This document shows positions 43,171-53,631 of a stretch of 64,000 nt of DNA, one piece after another; position 1 is the first letter of the stretch; the number at the start of each line of letters is the position of its first letter. Both the position numbers and the translations under genes were made by a program. The notes under the pieces were generated by a model that saw nothing but the letters and a program-made list of their open reading frames with translations, did not search any database and was not told where the DNA came from. The stretch comes from an uncultured Bacteroidales bacterium (GTDB lineage Bacteria; Bacteroidota; Bacteroidia; Bacteroidales; F082), in assembly GCA_900317155.1 (NCBI GenBank), contig ONFO01000009.1, forward strand, positions 62,001 through 126,000, given 5' to 3'.

Positions 43171-43223
43171 GTTCCAGCGGATTTGCAATCCGCTGGCTGT
43201 GAGTATAAGGATTTGCAATCCGA
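43171..43223 (+). repeat. Left flanking 53-bp repeat of the 43-49 kb cassette
   Basis: GTTCCAGCGGATTTGCAATC... through ...AAGGATTTGCAATCCGA. It matches 48977-49029 at 51 of 53 positions by eye, in the same orientation. A further inverted unit GGATTGCAAATCC lies at 43269-43282. Confidence 0.9.
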
Positions 43224-43375
43224 TAACTTTAAGTTTATTAAATATTTACATTGTAGTTTATAATTGTACGGATTGCAAATCCAACTAAACTAAGAATCAT
43301 CACAACAGACAGATTTTACCTATGCAGAAAACCTGCAAGGTTAGACCGTTATTTTGTAGAAAAATTTCAACCACC

Positions 43376-43471
43376 ATGAAAATTCTGTTTATTATCGGCG
43401 TGTTATTTTATGTATTATCCGAGTGTGGAAATTCTCTCTTTGGCAAGGGAGGCAAAAGTGGCAAATTCTAA
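43376..43471 (+). CDS. Possible small membrane peptide
   Basis: An open frame of 31 codons: M-K-I-L-F-I-I-G-V-L-F-Y-V-L-S-E-C, then a Gly/Lys-rich tail (G-K-G-G-K-S-G-K-F). A hydrophobic helix with a basic tail is a plausible small membrane peptide, and the frame can be extended upstream to 43322. It lies inside the putative cassette, 60 bases before the WYL gene. No family recognised; it could be chance. Confidence 0.35.
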   Translation: MKILFIIGVLFYVLSECGNSLFGKGGKSGKF

Positions 43472-43501
43472 TCAATGTAGTGTTAAAAGACAAAATATCC
43501 G

Positions 43502-43509
43502 TATTTTTG
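43502..43509 (+). promoter_or_regulatory. -7 promoter element for the WYL-led cassette
   Basis: TATTTTTG, 22 bases before the ATG at 43532. It is the only clear promoter in the cassette. Confidence 0.6.
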
Positions 43510-43531
43510 TCACCAACAAAGACACATTGAA

Positions 43532-44554
43532 ATGCCAGTAGATCGACAAGTCTTGATTCGTTATAGAGTGTTGAACCGCTGTTTCAGGAACGTGCATCGT
43601 GAGTATGATATTGCGGCGTTGCTTGATGCGGTTAACCGCGAATTGGAAAAGCATGATTGCCAGCCCATAAGCGAAAGAACGCTTCGGGCCGACATTCAAC
43701 GCTTGCAAGAGCCACCTTATAATATTGAACTTGACGAGTCCTTGAAAAGCGGCAAACGCCGACTCTACAGGTATTCCGACATTTCGTTTTCTTTGCCGAT
43801 GGTGACGCTTGACAATGAGGAAAAAGAAATGCTAAAGAAAACAATCGGAATGTTGTCACAGTACGACGACATTCCACAATATCAATGGATGCTGACTCTT
43901 CTCTCACAAATTGAGAACGGTAATGGCTGGGATGGCGACAAACGATTTGTCGAGTTTCAAAACAATGCTGACTTGGTGGGTATCGGGCATTTTCAAGCCT
44001 TATTGGGTGCCATCATCAATAAGCAGCCACTGAGCATTTCGTACAAGCCATTCGGCAAGCCCGAACGGAGCATGAACATACATCCATATTACCTTAAGCA
44101 ATACAACGACAGGTGGTTTCTCGTGGCACAAACGGAAGGTTTCGACGACCTTTCAGTATTGGCCATTGACAGGATTGATTCCATAAAAACGCTGCACATT
44201 CCATTCATTGAATCCAATGTGGATATGGAAGACTATTTCGTGGATTCGGTTGGTGTAACCGTGTTTCTCGACCGTCACATTGAGGAAGTCAGGCTGCGTG
44301 TTAATGCAAAACGGTATCCTTACTTGGCCACAAAGCCCATTCATTGGTCGCAGACCGAACTGAAAGATGAGACAACCGAGGAATACAAGGTGGTAAGGTT
44401 AAAAGTACGAATTAACAATGAATTGGAAAGTGCAATTCTCAGTTTCGGCGACGATGTTGAAGTGCTTGCACCTGAAAGCCTTCGGCTAAAAATTGGCGAG
44501 AAAATTGAAAGATTAGTGAGAAAATACAAGTATGAAGAAAAGTTGCAGAGTTAG
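43532..44554 (+). CDS. WYL-domain transcriptional regulator
   Basis: Cytoplasmic regulator of 340 residues. The N-terminal HTH region (about 5-75) has Y-D-I-A-A-L-L-D-A-V-N...I-S-E-R-T-L-R-A-D-I-Q-R-L. A WYL domain (about 145-225) carries P-L-S-I-S-Y-K-P-F-G, H-P-Y-Y-L-K-Q-Y-N-D-R-W-F-L and L-A-I-D-R-I-D-S-I. A WCX C-terminal region (about 235-335) follows. WYL domains bind nucleic acids or nucleotides, and WYL regulators often control defence loci. It is first in a co-directional run with the kinase gene (59 bases on) and probably controls it. Confidence 0.92.
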   Translation: MPVDRQVLIRYRVLNRCFRNVHREYDIAALLDAVNRELEKHDCQPISERTLRADIQRLQEPPYNIELDESLKSGKRRLYRYSDISFSLPMVTLDNEEKEMLKKTIGMLSQYDDIPQYQWMLTLLSQIENGNGWDGDKRFVEFQNNADLVGIGHFQALLGAIINKQPLSISYKPFGKPERSMNIHPYYLKQYNDRWFLVAQTEGFDDLSVLAIDRIDSIKTLHIPFIESNVDMEDYFVDSVGVTVFLDRHIEEVRLRVNAKRYPYLATKPIHWSQTELKDETTEEYKVVRLKVRINNELESAILSFGDDVEVLAPESLRLKIGEKIERLVRKYKYEEKLQS

Positions 44555-44613
44555 GCGATAGTTTTGCGGCATAAAAATAAGCATTCAGTACTAACCTAAA
44601 AAATCGTTTCGTT

Positions 44614-46959
44614 ATGGCAGAGAACAGTTTGCAGAACCAGAAGAATGAAGTTTCGTTTGTTTTGAGCGAGAAGGCCAAGGCTATCATTGAGAAATTTGAA
44701 AAACAGATAGAGAACCGTTCTGAAAACGATAAAAATGAGTTGAGGATTGATTTGCTGATGCTGTTGCTGAGGCGGCTTCATCCAGAAGTGCTTTCCGCTG
44801 ATGCCAAAGGGCTTTTTGCTGAGATCTATTGCCTAAACAATAAAACTACAGATAAGAATACTGGTTTTTTGATGCATTGTTTTTCGGAGAATGAATTGAA
44901 TAATCTTAGCAATGATTTCAATTCCATTTGGAGCTATTATTGTTCAATGTTTTCTATTGAAGGAATACCCACTATCGATGATTATCAAGAATTATTATTA
45001 TGTGAAAGTTTAATGCCTGATGGAAAACGGAGACTCGTTGTAACTTTTTCTTTCTTTACCTTAATTAAAAAATTAAAAGAATTAGATATTGATTTAGAGG
45101 TGCTTAAGAGTCAAATAAAGGAAAACCAAATTCAATTCAAAGCACTTGAAACTGTGTTGGCTGAATTGGAAATACGCTTGAACACTTTATCTTTAGGGCT
45201 ATTGTTTGATAGAATCGTTATTCCTCGTCTCCAAACGATTTCTAATTCAGACTTTAATTCTTTTGTGGAATTCATTGAAGATTTTGTTAAGGATGAGGGG
45301 AGTATGTTCTTTTTAGGTAGTCCAACCGAAATAAACAAGTTAGATTACCAGCAATTCCATAAGTGGGCAGTTGACAACAAGTTCCTTCATGGTGTGATAG
45401 AAATGGATGATTTACCTTCTTATGATGCTAACAGACAGATTCTGGTGTTAAGTAAACAACCAACAGATTCGATTTTCTTTGCCTGGATCGATGGTCCGAT
45501 GGATGGAGAAGGGCCAAGCATAGAAGAAATTGCAAGAGTCTTATCAGAAAAAAATCCTGACTATTACAAGGAAGTTTCGTTGGAAGATTTTAAAGCCCAC
45601 AACGGCAACTATTATACATTTGCCAAACGCCAATTTGTGCCTTCAATAATTGCAAATGAAGGCGAAACCGTTGTGAGATTGGGTGATTTGGTAGACTTGT
45701 ATGAATCGGAAGTAGAGGAAGATATTTCTTGTTACTTTTTGAACAGACCTTATTATTTCATAAATGATTATTATGGTAACATAGAGGCTGTAGAAATGCC
45801 TCAGGCTCGAAGGGTTCCAAATGACAAATTCTTTTTGTTTAGGTGGGATGAGTTCGCTTATGAGTTTTCCTGTGCATATCAAAGTGTAGATTATGATGGT
45901 CTGCTCATTGATGGTGATTCTTCTACTGGCGTTGGGTATCCTTATGATAATTATACTCATGACCCGATTATTTGCACTTACCCCAATTCAATTGTTTTTA
46001 AATTAAAGGAAGCCCCTGTTGAACCAATTGACCCGTATTATTTGGCGAAGTTGTTGTATTCATCAAGAGAAGTCTATGCCCAACTGGAATGCTATAAACT
46101 TCCATTTAGTGACTGCATTTTGGAAAAAGACGATTTTTTGTCTATTTTGGTTGCAATACCGACAATGGAAGAGCAACAGCGCATTCTCAATATGGACAGA
46201 CAAAAAGCCCTTGCCGACTCAAAAGAAGAAATCAAGAAGAATTTCGAATCATACAGGCATGATATTCGAATGAAGAAACACGCTTTGGCGCAAAGGCTTA
46301 CCGTAATGAATAATTGGTGGAAAACCTTACTTATGGCACGGAAAGATGGTAATGGCATAATTGATGATGAAGCGGTAGTCGGACGGTTGCATCCTGTCGC
46401 AGTTAAGAATATCTATACACAAATCGGCCACGAAATGAACATGTTGTTCAAACAAGTGAACTCGTTTAACATGGACGATACGATGAAGGTGGATGTTTTT
46501 GATGCCAAGGATTTCATTCAGCAGTATGTGAACCATCACGACCCAATGTTTGAGTACCAATGTGAATTGCCCGAAAAAGCGGCCAATATTCGTTTTCCCA
46601 AAGAAGCATTTCGAATCATTTTGGATAATATTTCTTCCAATGCTTGTTCTCATGGTTTCAAGGGGAGAGAGAAGGAGAAAAACATTATTCGGATATTAGC
46701 GGAAATAAAAGGCCAGGATTTAATCATTCGTATAGACAATAACGGCAGACCTATGCCCGTTGGAATGACAGCCGAAAAAGTTTTCACTTACGGTGATACT
46801 ACAGAGGAAGGGTCTGACGAGCATGGCGGTTTGGGAGGCTACCTGATTAAAGACATGATGACAAAATTTGGTGGTGAGGTAGAATTGGAATTGAACGCAG
46901 AAGCCGATTTCCCCGTGGCTTATAAATTGGTTTTCAGAGATGTGAACATTTACAAATGA
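44614..46959 (+). CDS. Hybrid protein: degenerate type I methylase/specificity-like region fused to a histidine kinase
   Basis: Protein of 781 residues with no signal peptide or membrane helix, hence a soluble kinase. Residues about 1-200 are helical and resemble no family I know. Residues about 233-340 resemble the end of an HsdM-type N6-adenine methylase (S-P-T-E-I-N-K-L-D...K-W-A-V-D-N-K-F-L-H-G-V-I-E-M; I-L-V-L-S-K), but the N-P-P-F/Y catalytic motif is missing. Residues about 350-530 look like a specificity half: V-R-L-G-D-L-V-D-L-Y and a closing L-V-A-I-P-T-M-E-E-Q-Q-R-I-L. The kinase part has a likely phospho-His H549 (Y-R-H-D-I-R-M-K-K-H), N-box N672/N676, D708 in I-D-N-N-G-R, and G-G-L-G-G at 738. 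The N-terminal half is visibly AT-rich. Confidence 0.75.
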   Translation: MAENSLQNQKNEVSFVLSEKAKAIIEKFEKQIENRSENDKNELRIDLLMLLLRRLHPEVLSADAKGLFAEIYCLNNKTTDKNTGFLMHCFSENELNNLSNDFNSIWSYYCSMFSIEGIPTIDDYQELLLCESLMPDGKRRLVVTFSFFTLIKKLKELDIDLEVLKSQIKENQIQFKALETVLAELEIRLNTLSLGLLFDRIVIPRLQTISNSDFNSFVEFIEDFVKDEGSMFFLGSPTEINKLDYQQFHKWAVDNKFLHGVIEMDDLPSYDANRQILVLSKQPTDSIFFAWIDGPMDGEGPSIEEIARVLSEKNPDYYKEVSLEDFKAHNGNYYTFAKRQFVPSIIANEGETVVRLGDLVDLYESEVEEDISCYFLNRPYYFINDYYGNIEAVEMPQARRVPNDKFFLFRWDEFAYEFSCAYQSVDYDGLLIDGDSSTGVGYPYDNYTHDPIICTYPNSIVFKLKEAPVEPIDPYYLAKLLYSSREVYAQLECYKLPFSDCILEKDDFLSILVAIPTMEEQQRILNMDRQKALADSKEEIKKNFESYRHDIRMKKHALAQRLTVMNNWWKTLLMARKDGNGIIDDEAVVGRLHPVAVKNIYTQIGHEMNMLFKQVNSFNMDDTMKVDVFDAKDFIQQYVNHHDPMFEYQCELPEKAANIRFPKEAFRIILDNISSNACSHGFKGREKEKNIIRILAEIKGQDLIIRIDNNGRPMPVGMTAEKVFTYGDTTEEGSDEHGGLGGYLIKDMMTKFGGEVELELNAEADFPVAYKLVFRDVNIYK

Positions 46960-46966
46960 CAAAAAC

Positions 46967-48271
46967 ATGAGCGAGAAGGTATTTTACAAAGTCCTTTTGG
47001 TTGACGACAATAAGACTTTGGGAACATCACTTCAGCCTTTAGCTGAGCAGTATTGTTTGGACTTGCAACAATGCGAATGTTGGGAAGATGCCAAGCAGGT
47101 ACTCTCCAACAAGAACGATTTTCTTGAATGGGATGCCATTATACTTGATGCAAGATGTGTGGACAGAAAAGGAAGTCCAGCAGACTTGCATTTTCTCCAA
47201 ATTGCGCTTACTGATTTTAATGGGCTTTGTGAACGCTTTAACTCAGAGATTCCTTGGTATGTTTTAACCGCTGGAGGCAAAGAGGACTTTAATTTCGTTA
47301 TGGAAGGTATAAAACGCATTCCACGAGACGAAAAGGGTTTGGGCAAGATGCTCTATTTCAAAGACAAGCCTCGTGATGAAAATGGCAAAGACGATGTTGA
47401 TTATTTATTTGAAAACATACAGAGAGCAGCACCACTTAGAACAAGAAATAAAATCAAGCATCAATATTCCACTTTGTTTGAGGTAATGAAATCCTGTCAA
47501 TTTGAGTCTGAAAGCGAGGATATTATGATAAGTGTTCTTTCCGCCCTGCATTTCCCTGAAGAAAACAAAGGCTTTGACCCTGTTCTGTATTATAACAGAC
47601 TCAGGCAAATGGTAGAATATCTTTTCAGGGCAGCGAATAAAATTGGGTTGCTTCCAGATTATTTCATTGAAGGAGGAAAGGTTAACCTTCAAGGTTCAAG
47701 TCTATATTTGGCCGGTGAAGCTTTCACTCCAAGCAAAGATTCAACAATACTTACAATCCGTTACGGTGAAAAAGGCGAGAGCGTTTTCCATAAAAACATA
47801 GCAAGTATTGTCAAAAACGTTCTAAGCGTTACTAGTCATCATTCTCACACGATAGAAATTGACAAAGAAGATGAAGAAGAATTATCGGCTTATTACTTAG
47901 AAACTTGCTCTCCTTACCTGTTGTTTGGCTATGCTCTCCAACTATGCGAGGTCATTATTTGGTTCGGCAATTATGCCAAGAGCCATAATGACAGGGAAGC
48001 CAATTTGGCGAAATGCAAAGTGGTGAAAAAAGAAACTGAATCCATATTGGAACAAAAGCCAGTAATTGAAAAATATGAGGGCAAGACTTTCCTGTTGGAA
48101 CAAGACGAAAAAGGAAATCTTCATTGTGGATATTGTTTGGTGTCATATAAACAAAACCAAGACAAAATTGGCAACATGGTCTTGTTGAAGGAAGTAGAAG
48201 AGAATAAGAACAGCGGTGAATTGAAAAAAAAGTATCCTTATTTTGCCTCAAAAGTTGAACAGGTTGAATAA
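46967..48271 (+). CDS. Response-regulator-like protein with unrecognised C-terminal domain
   Basis: Protein of 434 residues, seven bases after the kinase gene. Residues about 5-145 are a receiver domain: V-L-L-V-D-D-N (acidic pair D13-D14), probable phospho-acceptor D61 in A-I-I-L-D-A-R, T101 in V-L-T-A-G-G, and K134-P135 in F-K-D-K-P. The domain is larger than usual, with an insertion after D61. Residues about 150-434 have no HTH or known output motif. They are mostly helical, with a long middle segment and a C-terminal strand region (about 365-410, with H-C-G-Y-C-L-V-S-Y). Cognate partner of the upstream kinase. The output is not DNA binding of a familiar type. Confidence 0.8.
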   Translation: MSEKVFYKVLLVDDNKTLGTSLQPLAEQYCLDLQQCECWEDAKQVLSNKNDFLEWDAIILDARCVDRKGSPADLHFLQIALTDFNGLCERFNSEIPWYVLTAGGKEDFNFVMEGIKRIPRDEKGLGKMLYFKDKPRDENGKDDVDYLFENIQRAAPLRTRNKIKHQYSTLFEVMKSCQFESESEDIMISVLSALHFPEENKGFDPVLYYNRLRQMVEYLFRAANKIGLLPDYFIEGGKVNLQGSSLYLAGEAFTPSKDSTILTIRYGEKGESVFHKNIASIVKNVLSVTSHHSHTIEIDKEDEEELSAYYLETCSPYLLFGYALQLCEVIIWFGNYAKSHNDREANLAKCKVVKKETESILEQKPVIEKYEGKTFLLEQDEKGNLHCGYCLVSYKQNQDKIGNMVLLKEVEENKNSGELKKKYPYFASKVEQVE

Positions 48272-48309
48272 GTATGGTTTTGTTTTGTATGTTTTAAACA
48301 TTCATCACC

Positions 48310-48951
48310 ATGAACAAGTTAGAAGAACTCTACAGCGCCTTGAACTCTTTGAAGAAGTTCAATTTACCCATTGAAGACAAGTTATTGAAAGCCGTTGATG
48401 AATTAGAGGAAGAGATTATCAAAACAGAAGTTTTGCCTTCTATCACCAAAGACATAGAGCCTCGTTTAAGACAAATCAAAAGAAAGTTGGTGTTAGTGGT
48501 TGATTACGACCCAGATGATGTTTTGAGCGTAAAGCTGTCCCGTAAAGTCAATATTTCCAAACTCATTGAAGGCAAGAACATTAATGAGAACTCTATTGAA
48601 GTTTCCTCTCAAAAAGAGATTCACCGAAATCTTTCCGACAGATCCGAGTCCAAAGGTTTAGTTGTTACATATCAAGACGGAACCAAGGTCTGTGAACGGA
48701 CGGCAATTGACACTTTTATTAAAGTACTCAGACATATTGGATTAAGCCAGATTAAAAATATCGGCATTATGCATAGTGGGTATAATTTGGTGGATACAAG
48801 AAAACATCCAGAAACAACAAAAGCAAAATGGCAGCATAAAGTGGATGGTTATTATGTCTTTTGTGTTCTTTCTAATAGGCAAAAAGTGGCCGACCTAAGA
48901 AAGATTTCCGACTATTTCAATCTTGGAATGGATGTAAGGTTTGTCGAATAA
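48310..48951 (+). CDS. Small protein closing the cassette, with a conserved C-terminal domain
   Basis: Protein of 213 residues, 38 bases after the receiver gene. The N-terminal 60 residues are a helical, Leu/Glu-rich coiled-coil candidate. The middle (about 60-110) has K-L-V-L-V-V-D-Y-D-P-D-D. The C-terminal part (about 115-213) has L-V-V-T-Y-Q-D-G-T-K-V-C-E, T-A-I-D-T-F-I-K-V-L-R-H-I-G-L, G-I-M-H-S-G and G-Y-Y-V-F-C-V-L-S-N. From memory this last pattern recurs beside restriction genes in Bacteroidota, but I cannot name it. Probably a fourth component of the system. Confidence 0.7.
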   Translation: MNKLEELYSALNSLKKFNLPIEDKLLKAVDELEEEIIKTEVLPSITKDIEPRLRQIKRKLVLVVDYDPDDVLSVKLSRKVNISKLIEGKNINENSIEVSSQKEIHRNLSDRSESKGLVVTYQDGTKVCERTAIDTFIKVLRHIGLSQIKNIGIMHSGYNLVDTRKHPETTKAKWQHKVDGYYVFCVLSNRQKVADLRKISDYFNLGMDVRFVE

Positions 48952-48976
48952 GTTTTACTTGGTTTTTAATTCTTCG

Positions 48977-49029
48977 GTTCCAGCGGATTTGCAATCCGCT
49001 GGTTGTGAGTATAAGGATTTCCAATCCGA
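48977..49029 (+). repeat. Right flanking 53-bp repeat of the 43-49 kb cassette
   Basis: Same sequence and orientation as 43171-43223, with two substitutions by eye (a C/T and a G/C). It starts 26 bases after the stop of the last cassette gene. Confidence 0.9.
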
Positions 49030-49055
49030 AAAAAAGCTCTTAACTAATACAAAAA

Positions 49056-53470: not shown

Positions 53471-53514
53471 GGTAAGGGAAACAAATCTTACATAAATCAT
53501 TCGTAAATCTTGGG

Positions 53515-53631
53515 TTCTAGCGGATTTGCAATCCGCTGGACTTGAATATAAGGATTTGTAATCCGAAAACTATGAAGTGAAACTGTGCGGATTACAAATC
53601 TGCAAGTTCATTACAGTCGGATTGTAAATCC
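53515..53631. repeat. GGATTTGCAATCC repeat cluster D
   Basis: TAGCGGATTTGCAATCCGCT, then GAATATAAGGATTTGTAATCC, GCGGATTACAAATCTGC and CGGATTGTAAATCCG follow each other between the convergent radA and TonB-C genes. The first two units match the flanking repeats of the 43-49 kb cassette, but less closely than those match each other. Confidence 0.8.

Follow-up and report, generated by a model that had tools for sequence, protein, structure and literature searches.

A WYL, histidine kinase and response regulator gene set with a type I methyltransferase-like sensor, found beside defence genes in Bacteroidota

A candidate regulator of bacterial defence is encoded in a 64,000-nucleotide stretch of DNA (hereafter the window) that is part of a 261-kb contig of an uncultured Bacteroidales bacterium (assembly GCA_900317155.1, contig ONFO01000009.1). 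As an earlier note made from the letters alone had described, four intact and co-directional open reading frames (ORFs) occupy positions 43532-48951 and encode a WYL regulator, a soluble histidine kinase (HK) of 781 aa, a response regulator (RR) of 434 aa and a protein of 213 aa. The recurring unit is WYL-HK-RR, and in other genomes it is tied to restriction-modification (R-M) and other defence genes, which agrees with the defence association that had been proposed. We consider it to be a mobile, defence-associated two-component module regulating immune operons, and give this interpretation as a whole a probability of about 0.6. Between the window and L053 (loci recovered by our searches are designated by L numbers), the dN/dS ratio is 0.06-0.20 across all four genes, indicating intact genes under purifying selection.

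The principle is known from two-component systems and from immune regulators encoded close to the promoter, CapW and CapK-CapS among them; we know of no precedent for the sensor or the setting. In line with the earlier note, which knew of no named system with these genes, the HK-RR pair has no system model in PADLOC 2.0.0, searches of the open-licence PMC literature found no description of it, and the accessible portions of PMC12839542, PMC12255303, PMC7641849, PMC7159879, PMC13373217, PMC4012209 and PMC9122601 do not describe it. The regulation of restriction systems and the intracellular sensing of foreign DNA before or beside its cutting are open problems. A dead HsdM-HsdS sensor mounted on a soluble kinase would provide an intracellular receptor ready for use, and its output, the phosphorylated RR, could be measured, so that the sensing of incoming DNA or anti-restriction proteins would become directly testable.

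The counts given below rest on 45 non-duplicate RR loci, namely the window, 19 loci from RR searches and 25 from a scan with the WYL gene (L096, a duplicate of L043, and L163, a duplicate of L072, were dropped), and residue counts on alignments of 38 kinases (at least 650 aa) and 45 RRs. The kinase family was reached through the RR searches and then through the WYL gene. The first 539 aa of the window kinase matched only themselves in 395 genomes of the phylum, and neither a plasmid nor a viral contig; the full-length kinase matched 24 of 295 genomes of the order, mainly via its ATPase domain.

Kinase core and HsdM/HsdS-like sensor

The two-component core is readily recognized. Pfam identifies an ATPase domain in the window kinase and a structure search retrieves a kinase-core fold, and H556, N676, N709, G711, G739 and G741 are present in all 38 aligned kinases. 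The kinase has the DHp histidine and the ATP-binding boxes, and its partner RR the acidic pocket, phospho-aspartate, Ser/Thr and Lys of a receiver. The earlier note was right about N676 but had taken H549 as the phospho-acceptor, where the invariant residue is H556, and D708 and G738 as box residues, where the alignment gives N709-x-G711 as G1 box and G739 plus G741 as G2 glycines. A long helix spans residues 518-578 in the secondary structure of the model. Across the 38 kinases, Pfam (E ≤ 0.01) finds HATPase_c in 36, N6_Mtase in 29, Methylase_S in 18, HARE-HTH in six and HNH in one; in PADLOC 2.0.0 the kinase matches type I specificity models weakly (best 0.0014).

Ahead of this core lies the region in which a type I methylase/specificity-like fusion had been suspected, and several comparisons bear this out. 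In relatives found through the RR, the same region scores as an N-6 DNA methylase plus a type I specificity domain. A sensor profile of 20 of the 38 kinases (window included) matches HsdM structures (3lkd, 9.1e-63; EcoR124II M, 7.5e-60) as well as solved HsdS, half-S proteins and the M-S fusion 7eew (positions 21-569). For the window clade, which on the RR tree comprises the window, L053, L042, L059 and L178, hhalign gives 98.2% (E 3.3e-14) to HsdM and 93.8% (E 1.7e-7) to HsdS, the maximum being 1.2% in 20 column shuffles of each. Residues 214-544 of the window kinase match a family HMM built without the window and L053 (E 2.7e-19, 62.9 bits; best of 200 shuffles, 5.2), and residues 1-200 reach a non-significant 4.1 bits against the family HMM, the HsdM-clade alignment covering part of them. 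When the window copy and L053 are taken alone, hhalign recovers the HsdS part (56%, score 41.7 versus 26.1 in shuffles), and the HsdM match does not exceed column shuffles (31.4 versus 29.3). The target recognition domain (TRD) has the lowest window-L053 identity (30% at residues 401-450) and, taken alone from the window, no Pfam match. Judged from its clade and family, the window-type sensor is thus a descendant of HsdM plus half an HsdS.

The catalytic motif IV, N-P-P-F/Y, is absent from the window kinase, as had been noticed before. Among the 38 kinases examined, 26 are alignable at this motif; its Asn is kept in seven, five of them as NPP[FY], and replaced in 19 by S, T, V, I, K, H or D. 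Since the window kinase lacks the motif and the Asn is kept in only these seven, we do not file the protein as a methyltransferase. The seven kinases that retain the Asn, together with a DPPY in the L077 kinase and an NPPL in the Myroides kinase described below, would suit a slow or partner-assisted modification enzyme regulated by its kinase region; DPPY is a form of motif IV in other DNA methyltransferases. Such a still active methyltransferase is nevertheless quite improbable, given the 19 substitutions, a window copy whose S-adenosylmethionine (SAM) half is unrecognisable, and the 15 HsdM genes found after an RR, all of them separate genes with an intact NPP[FYW]. The HsdM cluster holds 25 ORFs, 21 with NPP[FYW]; the other four are fragments, three being pieces of the broken kinase of L161, a locus left out of the R-M count.

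Some kinases carry additional N-terminal parts. In L080, L081 and L084, a module of about 200 aa sits ahead of the M-S part; between L080 and L081, this module (residues 1 to ~230) is 16-54% identical from segment to segment, the rest of the kinase being about 95% identical. That it is a second HsdS half was rejected, with no Methylase_S match and 0.7% in hhalign to HsdS; the module has no Pfam match and nothing in the PDB below E 0.29. Other add-ons are HARE-HTH in the L046 and L047 kinases and a weak HNH match in that of L049.

We propose that the window-type kinase is a retired type I DNA methyltransferase. Its HsdM-like domain would be non-catalytic, and the conserved region of the half-HsdS that follows would continue into the helix by which the kinase dimerises. 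The sensor probably has its own specificity for DNA, or for a protein that mimics DNA, and, through dimerisation of the kinase, might resemble a small M2S2 complex; candidate ligands are its own DNA site, a DNA state or an anti-restriction mimic. Binding would shift the long helix, H556 would become phosphorylated and the phosphate would pass to D61 of the RR. An enzyme out of use may in this way have become an alarm by which bacteria notice infection. The domains, the conserved residues, the lost methylase motif, the operon context and the independence from HsdS specificity are computed results; the ligand, the phosphotransfer, the direction of regulation and the contacts of the RR are inferred.

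The response regulator and its output domain

A structure search identifies the receiver fold of the RR, and secondary structure gives a helical output domain followed by a small beta-rich tail. D61 and K132 are found in 44 of the 45 RRs; the residues D13/D14, D61 and T101 named earlier hold, and the lysine is K132 rather than K134. The output domain is well conserved at R213 (45/45), E217 (41/45), H294 (all 43 RRs with a residue there) and W332 (40/45). When the model of the entire RR was used in the fold search, only its receiver part was probed, and the output domain found nothing better than E 0.48 among PDB sequences. The RR has no PADLOC match. Pfam matches to DNA-binding families are single and weak (Myb 0.0025 and RHH_9 0.012, in one member each of 45), and the tail matches an S1/CSD-type OB domain in three of 45 RRs (S1CSD-TOTE-2, best 2.1e-6).

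The role of the RR is the least secure part of the model, and a relationship with the restriction subunit HsdR is suggestive only. DUF4145 is matched in two of 40 output domains (best 0.0032, a weak match), and an alignment of the output domain (40 of 43 cut domains) with the N-terminal domain of nine HsdR from these loci (of 11 proteins, leaving out the fragment of L127 and L167, which lacks the domain) gives E 8e-4 at a probability of 24% in hhalign. Its score of 26.3 compares with a maximum of 16.0 in 30 column shuffles, six control domains reached at most 1.4%, and the alignment pairs the conserved positions R213, E217, H294 and W332. The HsdR N-terminal domain is itself DUF4145 above the Pfam cut-off in the three proteins scanned. 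The RR would act through its helical domain, possibly related to the DUF4145 domain of some HsdR proteins, and its OB-like tail, and would tune, upwards or downwards, either the immune operon that follows or the WYL regulator.

A broader version can be held only tentatively. The module might be a phosphorelay arm of restriction immunity, in which retired methyltransferases, as intracellular receptors for DNA or for anti-restriction proteins, signal through the HK to an RR sharing HsdR DUF4145/HEPN ancestry, the alarm being traded as a plug-in between operons of type I R-M, GmrSD, CRISPR and nucleases. If true, this would be a two-component system built from restriction-enzyme parts on both sides.

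The same weak DUF4145 match, together with the constancy of H294, would also fit an RR that is itself the effector, a HEPN-like RNase-type toxin switched by phosphorylation, WYL-HK-RR then being a self-contained abortive infection system and the R-M genes mere neighbours; loci at which no same-strand gene follows the RR (e.g., L043 and L045) would be in keeping with it. We regard this as unlikely. The HEPN catalytic motif is R-x4-6-H, and an Arg at this spacing before H294 occurs in one of 40 RRs; the probability of the alignment is low, as mentioned, and the close RR-HsdM spacing reported below suggests co-expression.

Distribution, gene neighbourhood and independence

We return to the interpretation as a defence-associated regulator. 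The named RR loci all belong to Bacteroidota. RR searches matched nine of 393 genomes of the order, its own included, and none of the four other genomes of the genus that were searched. At the level of the class, the RR profile matched 25 of 395 genomes, 13 strongly (own included, E ≤ 1.1e-22) and 12 at E ≥ 6.7e-7; of these 12, G258 (the genome of L168) was checked and has no RR at a cut-off of 1e-15, and the rest were dropped. In scans of viral contigs, neither the RR nor the 213-aa protein nor the RR of L080 had a match. Of two outcomes named beforehand as counter-evidence, a structure prediction with no methylase- or TRD-like fold and homologues occurring only as lone housekeeping regulators without the neighbouring genes, neither occurred.

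The gene order recurs. A family kinase adjoins the RR in 42 of the 45 loci (L061 has none, and L122 and L166 have pieces without the ATPase part), and 35 loci have a WYL gene no more than 6.5 kb upstream. In the set from RR searches, WYL is found in 12 of 19 loci, three of the seven misses running out of contig within 3 kb, and HsdM within two genes in five of 19. Overall, 15 of the 45 loci have HsdM as one of the two same-strand genes that come next; in the 13 loci where it comes directly next, it starts 3-80 bp after the RR and is usually followed by HsdS and often HsdR. For scale, the 3.8 Mb of the window's genome contain eight places that exceed 50 bits for N6_Mtase, so that HsdM beside a random gene would be a per-mille event, a rough estimate and not a test. 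R-M genes lie upstream of HK-RR on the same strand in L094 and L167, and an HsdR gene in L162.

Other defence genes take the same place elsewhere. At L061 (9911-11870), WYL is followed directly by the RR and then by GmrSD, with no kinase between. At L166 (421-4543), where the contig begins just ahead of the RR and inside the presumed kinase gene, the RR overlaps a Cas6 gene by 17 bp and an RT-Cas1 gene follows. The gene after the RR encodes a PDC-S57-type GIY-YIG protein in L167 and an SLFN_AlbA_2 protein in L065; among ten downstream proteins scanned, those of L083 and L119 are of helicase/AAA types and those of L112 and L158 are without a Pfam family. A DUF7255 protein was also seen in or beside WYL-HK-RR operons, in L044 (4028-4408) and L046 (11861-12508) by Pfam and in L077 (6106-6726) by a look at the sequence.

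Two further sets stand outside the 45 loci. A mobilizable Myroides plasmid carries WYL-kinase-RR-HsdM-HsdS, its kinase and RR matching our HMMs at 7.8e-167 and 5.7e-77. On this plasmid (L177 3537-5993, M. odoratimimus plasmid pFM-G13), the public annotation reads 'N-6 DNA methylase' for the kinase and 'hypothetical protein' for the RR; genes so annotated beside a WYL gene in Bacteroidota can thus be kinases, and R-M annotation may overcount methylases. A faecal record filed as phage presents WYL-HK-RR-HsdM-HsdS-HsdR, with an RR of the window's clade.

In the pairs that allow a comparison, the kinase does not follow the site of the partner restriction system. Between L080 and L081, genes are 81-95% identical except HsdS (43%), whose TRDs are swapped, and the central TRD of the kinase is 88% identical; similarly, between L156 and L157, genes are 89-98% identical except HsdS (40%, TRDs swapped), and the kinase TRD is 96% identical. 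These swaps contradict the simple idea that the kinase reads the R-M site of its partner. Only in L111, and there through the methylase part, does the kinase have its cognate HsdS as best match. A hypervariable central TRD was also considered and rejected: 14 close pairs are 29-96% identical with no clear swap, at values mostly near those of the methylase part and below those of the kinase core, with a local dip between the window and L053.

The module and its partner also diverge separately. L157 and L160 share 91% identity in both M and R and only 38% in HK and RR, whereas L095 and L099 share 58% (HK) and 71% (RR) and only 28% in M. Mapped onto the RR tree, the R-M label requires 13 changes, compared with a mean of 15.4 in shuffles, and 64-65 of 500 shuffles are as low. 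From these near-chance changes and opposite divergences, we conclude that the module is an independent plug-in.

A ligand that is blind to sequence would be compatible with this independence. The pseudo-methyltransferase could be a guard or decoy that baits phage anti-restriction DNA mimics (Ocr- or ArdA-like), the binding of a mimic and not of DNA firing the kinase and starting a back-up defence. An M-S chassis retained after loss of catalysis, the presence among the fold-search matches of 7eew, an M-S fusion solved as a complex with Ocr, and the loci with other defence genes downstream are all consistent with such a decoy. We find it rather unlikely, since a sequence-blind bait would not need the TRD-like part, which is kept and dips to the 30% mentioned above between the window and L053.

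Several points weigh against the defence-regulator interpretation itself. The defence association of WYL-HK-RR is one of genomic context, not function. No R-M or other known effector gene adjoins the window locus, only the 213-aa gene. At 30 of the 45 loci, there is no HsdM within the next two genes, and at eight (L043, L045-L048, L064, L071 and L162) a gene of opposite orientation follows; moreover, the 25 loci that came via the WYL gene bias the WYL count. Regarding the sensor, the model of the window kinase is modest (mean pLDDT 71), and Foldseek places 7eew at rank 48 (E 8.9e-9 over 655 columns) with low TM-scores of 0.22/0.27, so that the overall fold is not captured well by the model. 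Finally, the L064 and L065 kinases lack the M-S part and have in its place the ~200-aa N-terminal module that L080, L081 and L084 carry ahead of it (L028 likewise, in pieces), and the M-S sensor is therefore not universal in the kinase family.

Several known systems are close to this module. In most kinases of the family, the N-terminal part is homologous to type I HsdM and then to one HsdS half, as in M-S fusions (7eew); they differ from HsdM-HsdS by the loss of the motif (in the window and 19 of 26 alignable kinases), the fused histidine kinase core and the presence of a separate intact HsdM where R-M follows. WYL regulators of the CapW/BrxR type are likewise encoded upstream of diverse defence operons, including CBASS and BREX (PMC9122588, PMC9122601), whereas here the WYL gene precedes a two-component pair; the term 'histidine kinase' is absent from the accessible portions of PMC9122601 and PMC4012209 (Makarova 2014). 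CapK-CapS, as given in the accessible part of PMC13373217 (EMBO J 2026), is a GHKL-type kinase encoded, together with its substrate, at the promoter-proximal end of various immune operons; CapK (HTH-STAS-GHKL) acts on a serine of a STAS-wHTH repressor. Our pair takes a similar promoter-proximal position but has a DHp-histidine kinase, an M-S sensor and a receiver-domain partner, with no STAS match in the window kinase or RR at E ≤ 1 (Pfam), and is not of the CapK/CapS type. Another described fusion likewise joins a histidine-kinase-type domain to one from defence; its fusion partner differs, and the text seen names no receiver. PorX-type RRs of Bacteroidota (PDB 7pvk, 8tff) also join a receiver to an output that is no recognised DNA-binding domain, in their case a PglZ-type phosphodiesterase (accessible part of PMC12839542), and here a helical domain with an OB-like tail.

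The locus in the window

The features of the locus are listed in Table 1. The gene set is flanked by a gene that we take from its sequence to be recJ on one side and by an opposite-strand gene on the other, and, among the matches listed, its closest named relatives are Bacteroidales assemblies. The G+C content is 37-38% in the HK, RR and small genes, 46% in the window and 49% in recJ. No HsdR is encoded beside the window kinase.

Table 1. Features of the locus, in window coordinates
Feature	Position	Strand	Basis or remark
WYL-family transcription regulator, WYL + WCX	43532..44554	+	Pfam WYL 2.2e-12, WCX 4.9e-12
Soluble histidine kinase, type I methyltransferase/specificity-derived sensor, 781 aa	44614..46959	+	
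Kinase residues 1-213, place of HsdM SAM-binding half	44614..45252	+	Eroded beyond recognition in window copy
Kinase residues 214-345, second half of HsdM-like domain, no NPPF/Y	45253..45648	+	
Kinase residues 346-470, HsdS-like TRD	45649..46023	+	
Kinase residues 471-545, HsdS-type conserved region entering helix 518-578	46024..46248	+	
Codon of invariant phospho-acceptor H556	46279..46281	+	38/38 kinases
Kinase ATPase domain, residues 623-781 (N676, N709, G711, G739, G741)	46480..46956	+	
Response regulator, 434 aa	46967..48271	+	
Receiver domain (D13/D14, D61, T101, K132)	46967..47431	+	
Helical output domain (R213, E217, H294, W332), possibly HEPN/DUF4145-like	47453..48010	+	Tentative
Small beta-rich C-terminal domain	48011..48268	+	Secondary structure
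213-aa protein	48310..48951	+	Homologues within restriction/defence clusters at two other loci
Dispersed ~57-bp repeat copy, palindromic core	43171..43226	+	
Dispersed repeat, second copy	48974..49036	+	Synteny with L054 restarts here
Dispersed-repeat copies in the window	43171-43226, 48974-49036, 53513-53570		

The site itself is informative on mobility. L054 retains recJ, a WYL gene of 91% identity and the genes downstream, and a gene for a 591-aa ATPase replaces those of the HK, the RR and the 213-aa protein; homology with the window ends at 44539 and restarts at 48974. This ATPase resembles LmuB, AbiLi and, weakly, Septu/Gabija ATPases (PADLOC, best 2.6e-13). A related ATPase and a presumably GIY-YIG-like protein, by our own reading of its sequence, are found in L051 behind an 89% identical WYL gene at another site. 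A common housekeeping two-component regulator that happens to have an unusual sensor could account for intact genes under purifying selection with no R-M genes adjoining, but it is very improbable for a set that is sporadic in the order and genus, as reported above, travels on a mobilizable plasmid, gives way to another gene at the same site in L054 and has defence genes downstream at many loci.

The window WYL protein shares with BrxR/CapW the combination of WYL and C-terminal WCX domains (Pfam), no HTH model reached E ≤ 1 in it, and its gene matches the listed WYL models of PADLOC at 3.6e-28. At least 525 relatives of this gene were confirmed in genome contigs, of which 80 were kept; 54 of these loci are without RR and 14 of the 54 have HsdM and HsdS next on the same strand, so that WYL-R-M without the kinase is also common. 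Between the window and L053, dS is 1.64 for recJ, 1.36 for the HK and 1.77 for the RR and only 0.26 for the WYL gene. For this pair, we therefore reject a recent replacement of the HK-RR cassette behind an old WYL gene; it is therefore the WYL gene, not the cassette, that looks recently exchanged, and the regulator seems, from these distances, to have been exchanged or converted apart from its operon.

The ~57-bp dispersed repeat has eight matches genome-wide, and the best three (88-100% identity) are all around this locus. The ends that the earlier note had assigned to the region (43171 and 49029) fall inside repeat copies. An inverted-repeat search 5' of the WYL gene returned the palindromes of this repeat and one weaker pair. 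A possible ORF of 49 codons lies there at 43322-43471, in a stretch conserved in L051-L054, and, read by eye, may encode a leader or a small membrane peptide.

WYL-HK-RR recurs from the four-gene set that had been put forward; the small fourth gene does not, and of the loci examined L053 alone shares it with the window. Its 213-aa product has no PADLOC match. A paralogue is present in a second defence cluster of the same genome (L050; G000:C49:246000-261008), along with an HKD-Snf2-type helicase, a type IIG-like methylase and a PDC-M33A-like protein, and at L187 (4061-9128) a homologue ends a cluster of a helicase, a methylase and a protein that appears SIR2-like by eye.

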